Made by a program: the position numbers and the translations under genes. A stretch of 64,000 nt of DNA from Novipirellula galeiformis (lineage in GTDB: Bacteria; Planctomycetota; Planctomycetia; Pirellulales; Pirellulaceae): the NCBI RefSeq assembly GCF_007860095.1, contig NZ_SJPT01000001.1:758212-822211 (forward strand). Direction: 5' to 3'. Positions 43,439 through 55,115 of this stretch are shown in pieces (the first letter of the stretch is position 1; the number at the start of each line of letters is the position of its first letter). Below the pieces are notes generated by a model. That model was not told where the DNA came from. It was given only the letters and a program-made list of their open reading frames with translations, and did no database searches.

Positions 43439-44866
43439 TCACTTGGGGCGCGACTTGCGATGTCGACTGCCACGCCCGATGCGGTGCAGATTCTCTTCCT
43501 CGGTCAGCATGCCCCAGCGAAGCGCCTGGTCTTGCTCGTACTGTTTTCCTAACTGCAACGCGATCGATGCTTTTGCCAGCTCAAAGCCGAGATAAAAAGC
43601 ATGACTGGGATCAACGTTGTCAGATTCAGGACGTTCGAGTAGTTGGTCGAATAATTTAAACGGATCGCGGTGTTTGAGGTGCAGTCCGGCGGAGAGCAAG
43701 TGCATGATTTCGTCTTGCGCATAGAGGCGATAGTGATTGTCCTTCAGGGTGTTGGCAAGCGACGCAAACATGCCTTGCGGATACGCTTTGAGTTTCGGGT
43801 CGCGCAATTGCACCAACTCATTGGAAAGATGTTTCGGCGGCACTCGGTTTTTAACGCTGTAGTGAACCAATTTTCTTGCCGCATCGCACTCGCGAACCGA
43901 CGATCGCGCCCAATTGATGACTTCGGTTGTCAACACGCTGCGAATCCCGAGTTCTTGACAAATGCCCAGCAGTAAAAAGTTGATGCCCGCGGAATCGACC
44001 TCCGTTAGTTCCGTCAAATTGCCGATCCCCATCATCATCTCAAGTTCGGGGTAATCGCGGCGGGTATCCGCATAGCGAATCAGACTTGGCATGAACCCTC
44101 CACCGATCGGTTCCAAAATCGGGTCCAATCGCATCGGAACTTGATGTCGCGCCAAATAATCGATCGTTTTTTCAAAACTTTTTTTGTCGTCGACTTGATC
44201 GGGAATCACGACCACTTCGGCGCCCCAATCTTTCGCGCTCTCGCGATTCGATGAGTTCACCGACAACACCAACGTGGCGCCGTGGCGAGTCGCTTCGCCC
44301 GCTTCCCACGCATCAAACGTATCGATCGAAACCTCCAATCCTTCGTCAACGATCGCGGTGACGTAGTCACCTATCGTGTTGCAACGCGAAGCGGGGTCGC
44401 AACCAATGTCAATCGTGTCGGCGCCTGATTGACGCAATCGTTTGGCAATTGCAATCACCGACTCAATCGAGAGTCGCGGTGCATGATTGATCTCCGCAAT
44501 GATCTTGATGTCGTAATCACTCGGTGGAGTTTTGACATGCCCTTGGCCAAACACGTCGGCAAGATCGCGACAGTCTTTGGGGCCGCAAATTACTTGCGTT
44601 TTGACGCTTTTTTGCAGTTCGTCGCAACCGGATTCAAGGTAGCCCGGAACGATCAAGTGCGTTGCTTCATCGGGGATCTCCAAGTGCCGAAGCAACCACT
44701 TGGATGTCATCAACGCGGCCACCGTAATCGGCATCACTCCGATCGAATAACGGAACTGGTATTGTTGCGCAAGCGATGCAGTGATCTCACGAACGGCATG
44801 CTCGGCAAGACGTCCAGTGACGAAGTGGTAGTGATGTTCGGTGGAAGCTTGGATCGTCGTAAGCAT
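43439..44866 (-). CDS. DUF6513 protein, dihydropteroate synthase-like
   Basis: The ATG at 44866 starts MLTTIQASTEHHYHFVTGRL. After an N-terminal domain of about 120 residues (FRYSIGVMPITVAALMTSKWL, HLIVPGYLE), a TIM-barrel resembling the pterin-binding family runs through IIAEINHAPRLS, ADTIDIGCDP, VSIDTFDAWEAGEA and MMGIGNLTELTEVDSAGIN. DUF6513 proteins are found with tetrahydromethanopterin genes in methylotrophs and planctomycetes and are thought to act in that cofactor's synthesis. The exact step is not established. Its start faces the candidate RNA gene across 170 bp. Confidence 0.85.
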   Translation of the reverse strand: MLTTIQASTEHHYHFVTGRLAEHAVREITASLAQQYQFRYSIGVMPITVAALMTSKWLLRHLEIPDEATHLIVPGYLESGCDELQKSVKTQVICGPKDCRDLADVFGQGHVKTPPSDYDIKIIAEINHAPRLSIESVIAIAKRLRQSGADTIDIGCDPASRCNTIGDYVTAIVDEGLEVSIDTFDAWEAGEATRHGATLVLSVNSSNRESAKDWGAEVVVIPDQVDDKKSFEKTIDYLARHQVPMRLDPILEPIGGGFMPSLIRYADTRRDYPELEMMMGIGNLTELTEVDSAGINFLLLGICQELGIRSVLTTEVINWARSSVRECDAARKLVHYSVKNRVPPKHLSNELVQLRDPKLKAYPQGMFASLANTLKDNHYRLYAQDEIMHLLSAGLHLKHRDPFKLFDQLLERPESDNVDPSHAFYLGFELAKASIALQLGKQYEQDQALRWGMLTEEENLHRIGRGSRHRKSRPK

Positions 44867-45032
44867 GAGTTTGATGGGTGAGAAAAGTCGCGTGGCCAAC
44901 GATTCAGTGTAACGCAACTCGACGCAAGCTCGACAGCGAGTGAACGTGATCGTGATGATTCATCGTGGTGCGCCTACGCTACATCGACGTGACAAGCGGT
45001 TCCGAATTTCGGCCCCAATAACGCAACTCATC

Positions 45033-45060
45033 TTGACGTGGTCGATTCTCTCTTTACAAA
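45033..45060 (+). promoter_or_regulatory. Sigma-70-type promoter candidate for a small RNA
   Basis: TTGACG (45033-45038) and TACAAA (45055-45060) are 16 bases apart. Transcription would start near 45067, exactly before a large hairpin ending in seven T. Confidence 0.6.
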
Positions 45061-45066
45061 TAAAAG

Positions 45067-45171
45067 GGACGAGAGATCCGTCGATCGATTGTTGAAGTAA
45101 TTTGAACACGACCTGTTGTGTTTTAACAACTTACTTCAGCGATTGTCGTGGCCGGGATCTCTCGTTTTTTT
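45067..45171 (+). ncRNA. Candidate structured small RNA, about 105 nt
   Basis: Arms ACGAGAGATCC (45069-45079) and GGATCTCTCGT (45155-45165) pair perfectly over 11 bases and are followed by TTTTTTT (45165-45171). Inside, GAAGTAA (45094-45100) pairs with TTACTTC (45131-45137), and the pairing extends outwards with G-U pairs for about eight more positions before an internal loop. The tip holds a further GTTGT/ACAAC stem. With a promoter immediately upstream this forms a complete promoter-RNA-terminator unit. No known RNA family is recognised; alternatives are an attenuator leader for the gene at 45394 or a long terminator without a separate RNA. Confidence 0.5.
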
Positions 45172-45393
45172 ATGCGCTGATGTTCTTTGAGAGCTGGACG
45201 CGGTTTGCGGTGATCGAGCACACCCTGATTGCCTCGATCAGCTTGATCACTCGACCACCTCGATTGCGTGGAGAGATCGATGCGTGGCCGTGATCCTCTA
45301 CACGAGGAAGCACCGCCACGCGAGGAAGTCAACGAAGGCTCGCGGTTTGAGGTCGAAATGAGGGTGGCGAATCTTGATGGAGAGTGATTGCGG

Positions 45394-46104
45394 ATGACGA
45401 TTGCCGATAAGGTCAACGTGTTGTGGGACGGCGAATCGATGTTGGCCGTGGAAAAATCGGCAGGCTTGTCAACGCAAGCACCCCCAGGCGCCGAGAGTCT
45501 AGAATCGCGTTTGCGTACGCAGCTTTCCGATCGCAGCGATTATCTGGCCGTCGTGCATCGACTCGATCGTCCCGTCAGCGGTGTGGTGCTGGTCGCACTG
45601 CGTAAACGTGTCGCTCATTTGTTGTCGCAACAATTCGCAACGCGAAAGGTTGAGAAACAGTATTTGGCCGTCGTTTCGGGGGAAATCGAGCCCGGCGAAC
45701 AACGTTGGACCGACTATCTAAGAAAGGTTCCCGATCACGCTCATGCCGAGCGTGTTGCGGAAGACCATCCCGATGCAAAGTATGCGGAGACTCGCGTTCA
45801 GCTCGTGCGTTATAACGCGGCACAGGATCGCTCGCTCGTTCGTCTGTTTCCTAGCACCGGACGGATGCATCAATTGCGAGTCCAATCCGCGCTGCGAGGG
45901 CACCCAATCTTGGGCGATTCGCGGTATGGTCGCGTGCATGGGCAAGGCGGCGAAAGCGACGTCATTCCCTCCTCGCAAGGGCTCTCGGCTCCCCAGCAAA
46001 CGCGAATCATGCTGCACGCCGAATCGATCACATTTCATCACCCCAAAAGCGGAGTTCGCGTGACGGTTCAATGCCCTGCGGACGAATTGCAGCAAATCGT
46101 GTAG
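45394..46104 (+). CDS. RluA-family RNA pseudouridine synthase
   Basis: The enzyme isomerises uridine in rRNA or tRNA. The catalytic motif HRLDRPVSGVVLVA is present (aspartate in HRLD), with SQQFATRKVEKQYLAVV and the C-terminal GRMHQLRVQSALRGHPILGDSRYG. No S4 domain precedes the catalytic domain, so it resembles the RluC/TruC-like short forms. GGAG lies ten bases before the ATG at 45394. Target position unknown. Confidence 0.92.
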   Translation: MTIADKVNVLWDGESMLAVEKSAGLSTQAPPGAESLESRLRTQLSDRSDYLAVVHRLDRPVSGVVLVALRKRVAHLLSQQFATRKVEKQYLAVVSGEIEPGEQRWTDYLRKVPDHAHAERVAEDHPDAKYAETRVQLVRYNAAQDRSLVRLFPSTGRMHQLRVQSALRGHPILGDSRYGRVHGQGGESDVIPSSQGLSAPQQTRIMLHAESITFHHPKSGVRVTVQCPADELQQIV

Positions 46105-46260: not shown

Positions 46261-46296
46261 ATGAGTTTTAACGCCAAAATGAGTTTTGACGCCAAG
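46261..46296. repeat. Tandem duplication, 18 bp x 2
   Basis: ATGAGTTTTAACGCCAAA and ATGAGTTTTGACGCCAAG stand in tandem in the 265-bp gap between the pseudouridine synthase gene and mqnA. This copy is not beside a stop codon. Confidence 0.9.
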
Positions 46297-46369
46297 CCAA
46301 ACCCAACCTAGTGCCCGCCGTCCCCACGACGCGATGACGACGATCGAACGACCCAAAGCAAATCCTCTC

Positions 46370-47182
46370 ATGACATCATCCTCTGCTAACGCTCCCCTTC
46401 GTATCGGTGCGGTTTCGTATCTCAACACCAAACCGTTGGTGTGGGGATTGCGTGAACGGCTTGGAGACCGTGGTGAATTGTCCTTCAATTTGCCCAGCCG
46501 ATTGGCGGACGATTTGCACACAGGCAAACTTGATGTCGCCCTGATTCCCTCGGTTGAGTACTTGCGAGACCCCTCCTACAGTATCGTTTCGGATGCCGTG
46601 ATTGGTTGCCGAGGCCCGGTGTGGAGTGTGCGGTTGCTTAGCCGCGTCCCGGCCGCTCAGATCAAGCGGCTCGCGCTCGATGAAGGCAGTCGCACAAGCG
46701 CCGCACTGCTACAAATTCTGCTGTGGGAAATTCACGGCATTCGGCCTCAGATTGTGCCCTTCCGGATGGAACAGGCTCCTGAGACGATTGAGGCCGATGC
46801 GATGCTGATCATCGGAGATCGCGCGATGCATCCGGCGCCTCGCTGTTACCAAGAAATATGGGATTTAGGTGATCGTTGGTGCCGATGGACTGAATTGCCC
46901 TTTGTGTTTGCGATGTGGGTCGCACGCGCAGGAGTCGAGGTGGGCGATTTGGCTGCGGCTCTCCAAGCGTCACGTGACGAGGGGATGGCGTCGCTCGAAG
47001 AGATCGCCAGCGTTGAAGCGGCCGCCCATGGACTCACCAACGAAGACCTTTACCGTTATTTTGCTGAGAACTTGCACTACACGCTTGGCCCCGCCGAACG
47101 CACCGCGCTGGACGAATTTCGTCGTCGTGCGGTCTCGCTTGGCCTCGTTCCCGAATTAAACGCCCTAAATCAAGCTCCCTGA
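46370..47182 (+). CDS. mqnA: Chorismate dehydratase (futalosine pathway)
   Basis: MqnA removes water from chorismate to give 3-enolpyruvylbenzoate, opening the futalosine route to menaquinone. The N-terminus IGAVSYLNTKPLVWGL and the LDVALIPSVEYL and ALDEGSRTSAALLQILL segments are diagnostic of this substrate-binding-protein-like fold. I place the start at 46370, nearest the conserved domain; 46334 is also possible and neither has a strong ribosome site. mqnC follows after 23 bp, so they form an operon. Confidence 0.94.
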   Translation: MTSSSANAPLRIGAVSYLNTKPLVWGLRERLGDRGELSFNLPSRLADDLHTGKLDVALIPSVEYLRDPSYSIVSDAVIGCRGPVWSVRLLSRVPAAQIKRLALDEGSRTSAALLQILLWEIHGIRPQIVPFRMEQAPETIEADAMLIIGDRAMHPAPRCYQEIWDLGDRWCRWTELPFVFAMWVARAGVEVGDLAAALQASRDEGMASLEEIASVEAAAHGLTNEDLYRYFAENLHYTLGPAERTALDEFRRRAVSLGLVPELNALNQAP

Positions 47183-47205
47183 ATTCTCCGACAATTAAAA
47201 AAATC

Positions 47206-48360
47206 ATGATCGCTCCTGCCGCTGATAACTCGATCCGTGCCATTTTGGACAAAGCAATCGCAGGCCAACGGCTGACCCCCGCCGAAGGACTTCAATTGCT
47301 CGAGAGCCACGATTTGGCTGCGCTCGGCGCCGCCGCCGAAGCGGTCTCGCGGCGGATGCATCCCGAGCCCTATCGAACGTACAACATCGACCGAAATATC
47401 AACTACACCAACGTCTGTACGGCAGTCTGTAATTTCTGTGCGTTCTATCGTGGGCCGAAAAGTGATGAAGGCTACGTGCTGCCCCGCGCCGAACTATTGG
47501 CAAAGATTGAAGAGACCGTCGCACTGGGCGGTAACCAAATCTTGCTGCAAGGCGGATTGCATCCGAAATACAAGCTCGACTGGTATGAGGAGATGCTCGG
47601 CGACATCAAGCAAGCGTTTCCCGAGGTGAACATTCATGGATTCAGCCCTCCCGAGCTGCACCATTTCACCAAGGTCAACAACCTTTCGATCGAAGAAGTG
47701 CTGCAGCGACTTAAAGCGGCCGGCTTGGGCAGCATCCCTGGCGGCGGTGCCGAAATCTTGGTCGACCGCGTTCGCAACGAGATCACTCGTGGCAAAGTCA
47801 TGACTGACGACTGGTTAAACGTGATGCGAGTCTGGCACAAACTAGGCGGCGTCAGCAGCAGTACGATGATGTTCGGACATGTCGAAACGCTGGAGGAGCG
47901 AGTGGAACATCTCCGCCGTGTTCGCGAGTTGCAGGATGAAACCAATGGCTTCACCGCCTTCATTTGCTGGACGTTCCAGCCCGACAATACCGAATTGTCG
48001 CACATCCCACCGAAGGGTTCATTCGAGTACCTGAAAACATTGGCGGTGTCGCGGTTGTTCCTTGATAATGTGCCCAACATTCAAAGCAGCTGGGTCACGC
48101 AAGGATTAAAAGTCGGTCAATTGTCGCTGCTGTTTGGTGCCAACGACATGGGCAGTTTGATGCTCGAAGAAAACGTGGTCGCCGAAGCTGGCACGGTTCA
48201 CTTTTTGACGCTCGATCAAATCCGCGAGGCGATCGAAGAGCTCGGGTTCGAAGCCCGGCAACGCAGCGTCGATTACAAGCTTGTCGCGCCCGAACTCGAG
48301 CAAAAAGCGATCGAGGCCAATCGCAAACGTGCGGCCACGGAATTGGTGCAACTTAGCTAA
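47206..48360 (+). CDS. mqnC: Cyclic dehypoxanthinyl futalosine synthase
   Basis: This radical SAM enzyme cyclises dehypoxanthine futalosine. The cluster ligands are C71-x3-C75-x2-C78 in NYTNVCTAVCNFCAFYRG. ILLQGGLHP, IHGFSPPE and the IPGGGAEILV motifs place it with MqnC rather than MqnE. 384 residues is normal. Its stop overlaps the stop of polX on the other strand by four bases. Confidence 0.93.
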   Translation: MIAPAADNSIRAILDKAIAGQRLTPAEGLQLLESHDLAALGAAAEAVSRRMHPEPYRTYNIDRNINYTNVCTAVCNFCAFYRGPKSDEGYVLPRAELLAKIEETVALGGNQILLQGGLHPKYKLDWYEEMLGDIKQAFPEVNIHGFSPPELHHFTKVNNLSIEEVLQRLKAAGLGSIPGGGAEILVDRVRNEITRGKVMTDDWLNVMRVWHKLGGVSSSTMMFGHVETLEERVEHLRRVRELQDETNGFTAFICWTFQPDNTELSHIPPKGSFEYLKTLAVSRLFLDNVPNIQSSWVTQGLKVGQLSLLFGANDMGSLMLEENVVAEAGTVHFLTLDQIREAIEELGFEARQRSVDYKLVAPELEQKAIEANRKRAATELVQLS

Positions 48361-54624: not shown

Positions 54625-55115
54625 GGTGTCATTTCCCATCAAAGAAAGATTGCGGAAGTCGATGTAAGCTGTCTTGGTCATACCATTGATTGCTCGATTA
54701 TACCTCCAATGGACGCGGCGGTTGGTCAGATCACGTTCTTTCTTCACGATGTTGTCAAGTCGTTCCGTCAGAGAACAATGATCATCCGCAGAACACGTGA
54801 GGCACTTGGGCTGGATTCTATCACGACTCGCAGAACTAGCAGCGACACAATCAGGGACCGGCACCGGGTCCACGGACTGACGTCCGTGGCTGTTGCATGT
54901 CATCGCTTTGCGATTTGTAATCTGCCAGCCGTAACGCGACGGTAGGGGAAATAAATGTGGGGAAAACAAATGTGATGGGGGCGTTTACGGAGCTCGTCAC
55001 TGAATCTGGCATACGCGGCCACAGCGATCATGTCTGCCAATTCTCCGGGAGCGTCGGCGGCGTTGATGATCTTCGTCCTCGGCAGCAGAGATTTCCTCCG
55101 GTTGCCAGTGCATCA
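54625..55115. other. Intergenic region
   Basis: It holds stem-loop copy 3 at 54957-55000. On the minus strand, bases about 55095-54985 read protein-like in one frame (NAADAPGELADMIAVAAYA), but with no start and no family; it may be a decayed gene end. Confidence 0.45.
54957..55000. repeat. Stem-loop repeat element, copy 3
   Basis: GGGGAAAACAAATGTGATGG is followed by GGGCGTTTACGG and then TCGTCAC, pairing with GTGATGG. It shares the GTTTACGG word with copy 2. Confidence 0.6.

Follow-up and report, generated by a model that had tools for sequence, protein, structure and literature searches.

The element at positions 45033-45171 of the window (the whole stretch of 64,000 nucleotides from Novipirellula galeiformis that was analysed) very probably constitutes a genuine small RNA (sRNA) gene that had not been catalogued before, and would represent a new family of a known kind. 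Comparison of the sequence with its relatives reveals a conserved promoter position, a terminator, covariation of the stem, an invariant hexamer, a single copy per genome and independence from either neighbouring gene; that the RNA is made, and that it acts in trans via the hexamer UGGCCG, we infer. As the element is present once per genome and retains six unchanging bases, it probably has a regulatory job.

The unit consists of a promoter, a rod-like hairpin (45069-45165) and a run of seven T, all on the forward strand, and an earlier note's description of TTGACG-16-TACAAA, a hairpin and seven T proved exact to the base when checked against the sequence. The -35 element TTGACG (45033-45038) is separated by a 16-nt spacer (45039-45054) from the -10 element TACAAA (45055-45060). 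The hairpin opens with the 5' arm of a basal stem, P1 (ACGAGAGATCC, 45069-45079, delimited by a covariance model), at or just before which the transcript probably starts; this is followed by GT (45080-45081), a variable upper hairpin, P2 (45082-45148), the hexamer TGGCCG (45149-45154) and the 3' arm of P1 (GGATCTCTCGT, 45155-45165, delimited by covariation), which is also the stem of the terminator. The T7 tract of the intrinsic terminator (45165-45171) is followed by ATGCGC. In the minimum-energy fold the hexamer is unpaired and forms the 3' side of an internal loop in which 2 nt (GU) face 6 nt. Positions 45067-45171 fold with an energy of -47.5 kcal/mol, compared with a mean of -24.3 for shuffled sequences (z = -7.34; 0 of 200 shuffles as stable), and positions 45069-45171 give z = -7.36. 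A simple promoter and terminator scanner listed neither this promoter, because its -10 element has no final T, nor this hairpin, because its loop is too long for the program. Thus, the evidence from the single sequence is no more than suggestive, and the case relies on comparison.

The RNA lies between two genes, neither of which belongs to it: a DUF6513/pterin-binding (dihydropteroate-synthase-like) gene upstream (43442-44869, reverse strand; Pfam PF20123, PF14251 and PF00809) and an RluA-family pseudouridine synthase gene downstream (45394-46104, forward strand; PF00849). The two genes are divergent, as the earlier note had described them, but the gap between them measures 524 bp if translation starts at the ATGs at 44869 and 45394, rather than the 527 bp that it gave. 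No protein appears to be encoded in the gap, again as had been proposed: no ORF product survives in relatives, among which the length of the unit (64-125 nt) and its middle sequence vary freely. Further downstream of rluA, at 46286-48360 on the forward strand, are two genes which on reading their sequences resemble those of the menaquinone futalosine pathway (MqnA-like and MqnC-like).

A BLAST search of 60 relatives found the element in two congeners (at 94%) and, as short matches, in three further genera, each beside a DUF6513 gene. A stringent search pattern covering the 3' part was present in 14 of 199 genomes of the family (reversed control, 0). Covariance model R1, which comprises P1 and its flanks, matched 50 of 396 genomes of the order, all within one family, plus one false match (L085) in another family of the order, which is an ordinary perfect terminator without the neighbour genes. 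The broader model R2 matched 87 of 241 family genomes, representing 14 of 68 genera, with one copy per genome; in a sparse sampling of the phylum (392 genomes) it yielded only two matches, both in Pirellulaceae. Second matches in two genomes (G217 and G868) proved to be plain terminators located 3' of an alcohol-dehydrogenase-like gene. The window genome likewise holds a single copy, and single-copy status rules out a multicopy repeat or MITE. Across all 84,980 GTDB species genomes, a 23-base degenerate pattern, for which we estimate about one chance match, gave 62 matches, 61 of which were confirmed as the element (60 full matches and one cut by the end of the locus). The confirmed loci belong to Rhodopirellula (including R. 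baltica), Rubripirellula, Stieleria, Roseimaritima, Roseiconus, Pirellula and relatives; the 62nd, in an alphaproteobacterial bin (L107), had no covariance match and was ruled out. A pattern search of viral contigs returned no copy.

The extracted elements share a common architecture: TTGAC, about 16-17 nt, TAnAA(C/A), about 8 nt, P1, P2, UGGCCG, the other arm of P1 and a U tract. TTGAC is found 35-40 nt 5' of the basal stem in all 77 testable copies, whereas only 2 copies have TTGAC in an upstream control stretch; this conserved position supports the promoter claim, on which the scanner was silent. In the aligned promoters the -10 element is TAnAAC/A across genera, not TATAAT, perhaps a clade-specific promoter preference. 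Over 78 distinct copies the unit ranges from 64 to 125 nt (about 103 nt in the window), and every copy has a U tract. The family combines its own promoter and intrinsic terminator, held at conserved spacing, with a structure maintained by compensatory change, as a stand-alone sRNA gene should.

Such change is seen in P1. Among 49 distinct copies aligned to the covariance model, 539 of 539 P1 cells are paired, 8 of the 11 base pairs show double changes, and covariation reaches 0.475 (shuffled controls, 0.241; slid controls, 0.147 or less). Although the model itself guided this alignment, P1 occupies the two ends, where there is little doubt about the alignment. An independent MAFFT alignment of 14 copies has double changes at 5 of the 11 pairs with 100% pairing, and the covariation is likewise seen in a looser set of copies, a few of them reverse-strand or false matches. 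About half of the P1 positions vary in sequence over the 78 copies. The compensatory changes which the earlier note had proposed to seek in relatives are thus present, and its candidate small RNA of no known family has gained support.

By contrast with the stems, UGGCCG is identical in all 78 distinct copies and the preceding G is kept in 77, an invariance that is in part imposed, as 62 loci came from a pattern demanding GTGGCCG; covariance-model matches fetched without that demand, divergent ones included, also have UGGCCG throughout, and in one of these (L079) the preceding G is A. In some relatives two bases of the hexamer are able to pair with the facing GU, and, with G-U pairs permitted at its ends, the hexamer is complementary to itself. 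Its complement is not enriched in the leaders of the divergent DUF6513 mRNAs (GGCCAC, 2 matches against 3.7 expected), and antisense control of that gene via GGCCAC was rejected on this ground. A T-box-like bulge (GUGG) was rejected on inspection because there is no specifier region.

We consider it fairly probable that the element is a stand-alone sRNA which acts in trans through UGGCCG without Hfq, for which no gene was found in the window genome. A housekeeping-type promoter would direct transcription from the foot of P1, and an intrinsic terminator built from P1 would stop it, giving an RNA of about 103 nt (relatives, 64-125 nt). UGGCCG, displayed on a rigid rod, would then be where a protein or a complementary RNA makes contact, independently of Hfq. 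Of the two, we slightly favour a protein over pairing with an mRNA, since helices on both sides hold the site in place and no conserved complement is seen in the divergent mRNA. In several lineages an apical GGA loop, a possible site for CsrA, would have been added to this core.

The upper hairpin P2, delimited by folding and by double changes, differs in sequence and length between genera with its folding kept; since no sequence is common to the genera, the core alone places constraints on the mechanism. In the Stieleria/Rhodopirellula group, double changes affect 13 of the 27 predicted pairs, and all 13 are in P2. The commonest apical-loop triplet is GGA, present in 14 of 38 sequence clusters, with differing closing stems, where the composition of the loops would predict 3.3; because the clusters do not represent independent lineages, we take this excess as no more than suggestive. 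By copies, 23 of 78 have an apical GGA. In two loci (L116 and L130) the loop carries ACAUGGAUGU, which is close to the CsrA SELEX consensus RUACARGGAUGU (PMC7652899). The apical GGA loop could therefore bind CsrA in several lineages; as the window copy has no GGA, such binding would be at most a lineage-specific addition. One sub-lineage (L065, L072, L079, L087, L089, L093, L102, L124, L134, L139 and L141) has an apical loop with a conserved CGUCCU(U/G) that is absent elsewhere and that could pair with Shine-Dalgarno-like sequences.

The genomic neighbourhood bears on whether the RNA is a gene in its own right or a cis-acting leader or attenuator, in which signal-dependent read-through of the terminator would allow the rluA-type gene to be made. 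Nearly all copies lie between the divergent DUF6513/pterin-binding gene and an rluA-type gene, which is the most frequent downstream gene and lies on the same strand as the RNA. All examined relatives in which these two genes are adjacent keep the RNA, so the loss of the paired arms that the earlier note had named as refuting its candidate was not seen; among the relatives examined, DUF6513 genes without the RNA are also without an adjacent rluA. A leader would also suit the approximately 20 of 78 copies in which rluA may start within about 40 nt of the U tract, leaving little room for a second promoter; transcripts may read into rluA there, and read-through is possible as an added role at those copies. 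However, rluA is absent at about 20 copies, and in 13 of the 18 resolvable loci among these the next ORF is convergent, which speaks against a simple leader of rluA; the other codirectional genes are unrelated. The convergent ORFs include recognisable proteins (Amidohydro_2, Poly_export, Usp and FtsX). The RNA is also kept without an adjacent DUF6513 gene at three loci (L046/L201, L071/L202 and L079), and one of these three genomes has a DUF6513 gene elsewhere. Thus, the RNA is not simply the leader of either neighbour, and persistence without either of them would be the pattern of a stand-alone gene. Moreover, we see no alternative fold that could act as an antiterminator, and the place of the conserved hexamer is inside the terminator stem, not in an aptamer. 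We therefore regard an rluA leader or attenuator as unlikely.

Of the other explanations, one is that the RNA is a CsrA sponge or co-factor, its apical GGA loop sequestering CsrA or a paralogue. The GGA enrichment and the near-consensus loops described above speak for this, as do the seven CsrA homologues of the window genome (L190-L196), a seemingly large set for one genome. CsrB/RsmZ-type antagonists of CsrA carry several GGA motifs in hairpin loops, with 22 GGA sequences in CsrB (PMC7652899); the element resembles them in having a CsrA-type site in some lineages but differs in having at most one site per RNA, and none in the window copy or in 24 of the 38 clusters. What is universal is UGGCCG, not GGA, and we judge a sponge to be improbable. 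Nor do we expect, with more than slight probability, a 6S-type RNA acting as an open-promoter mimic to which RNA polymerase binds, a resemblance which the earlier note had drawn loosely and which did not survive comparison. Like 6S RNA (SsrS, RF00013), the element is one long rod with an internal loop, encoded by a single-copy stand-alone gene, and the place is vacant in so far as Pirellula staleyi and Rhodopirellula baltica are reported to lack 6S (Wehner 2014, as cited in PMC5673643); a truncated 78-nt B. subtilis 6S-1 is, furthermore, still functional in vitro (PMC8876501). However, 6S RNA as described in PMC8876501 has about 200 nt and two helical arms separated by a large central bubble, whereas the element has 64-125 nt, a short one-sided hexamer loop (2 nt facing 6 nt) in place of an open-promoter bubble, and no -10-like sequence in that loop. 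A covariance search of the whole window genome with RF00013 gave no match, whereas control genomes were positive; model, length and missing bubble together speak against membership of the 6S family, which was rejected. Equally remote is the idea of a strong terminator or repeat without RNA function: the end of the element does resemble other terminators of the genome (T7 followed by ATGCGC), but the unit points away from the upstream gene, possesses a conserved promoter of its own and is single copy, and the invariant hexamer is not needed for termination.

The stand-alone sRNA that we favour has no catalogued counterpart among the sources searched. Against Rfam 15 the element matched no family above the gathering threshold, with only a chance mir-46 match up to E = 10, and in the literature on sRNAs of Planctomycetes and Pirellulaceae we found no description of it. 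The Rhodopirellula-1 motif (Weinberg et al. 2010, PMC2864571) is likewise a candidate structured RNA from Planctomycetes; identity with the element is unlikely, because the published listing gives the motif as cis-regulatory and as present also in Proteobacteria, where the element has no confirmed match. Trans-acting base-pairing sRNAs with an intrinsic terminator are also comparable, sharing with it an own promoter, a length of about 65-125 nt, a terminator hairpin and a conserved unpaired patch; the element differs in that its patch is embedded in the terminator rod rather than in a free 5' region, and in the lack of a detectable Hfq in the window genome. It is thus very probably ordinary as a kind and new as a family, with unusually clear comparative support.

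A bolder reading, which we hold to be doubtful, is that the Rhodopirellula-Pirellula clade has here a core regulatory RNA, in which the invariant, self-complementary UGGCCG in the terminator rod would be a new protein-docking or RNA-dimerising site and the lineage-variable apical loop would connect it to one of several CsrA paralogues, in a setting where 6S is reported absent (in the two species cited above, the best-studied Pirellulaceae) and Hfq was not found (in the window genome). For the whole PVC group, an Rfam-based count gives only 8 distinct sRNA families (PMC9029176). Against this background, a single-copy sRNA with an invariant hexamer in 14 genera offers a concrete entry to RNA-based regulation in Planctomycetes, and the element is amenable to deletion or pull-down in a culturable relative.

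Two further observations concern RNA signals in the window genome. The sequence TTTTTTATGCGC (45165-45177), at the 3' end of the element, occurs 12 times in the genome against 3 for its reversed control, and all 12 occurrences are directly 3' of a hairpin (L178-L189); T7 followed by ATGCGC is accordingly found at the element and at 11 other terminator-like sites. At intrinsic terminators of this genome the T tract is thus frequently followed by ATGCGC, as it is in 34 of the 78 sRNA copies of other genomes. Elsewhere in the window, positions 54870-54915 on the forward strand match the Acido-Lenti-1 RNA (RF01687; 47.3 bits, E = 1.5e-07), which is the sole Rfam match in the window.
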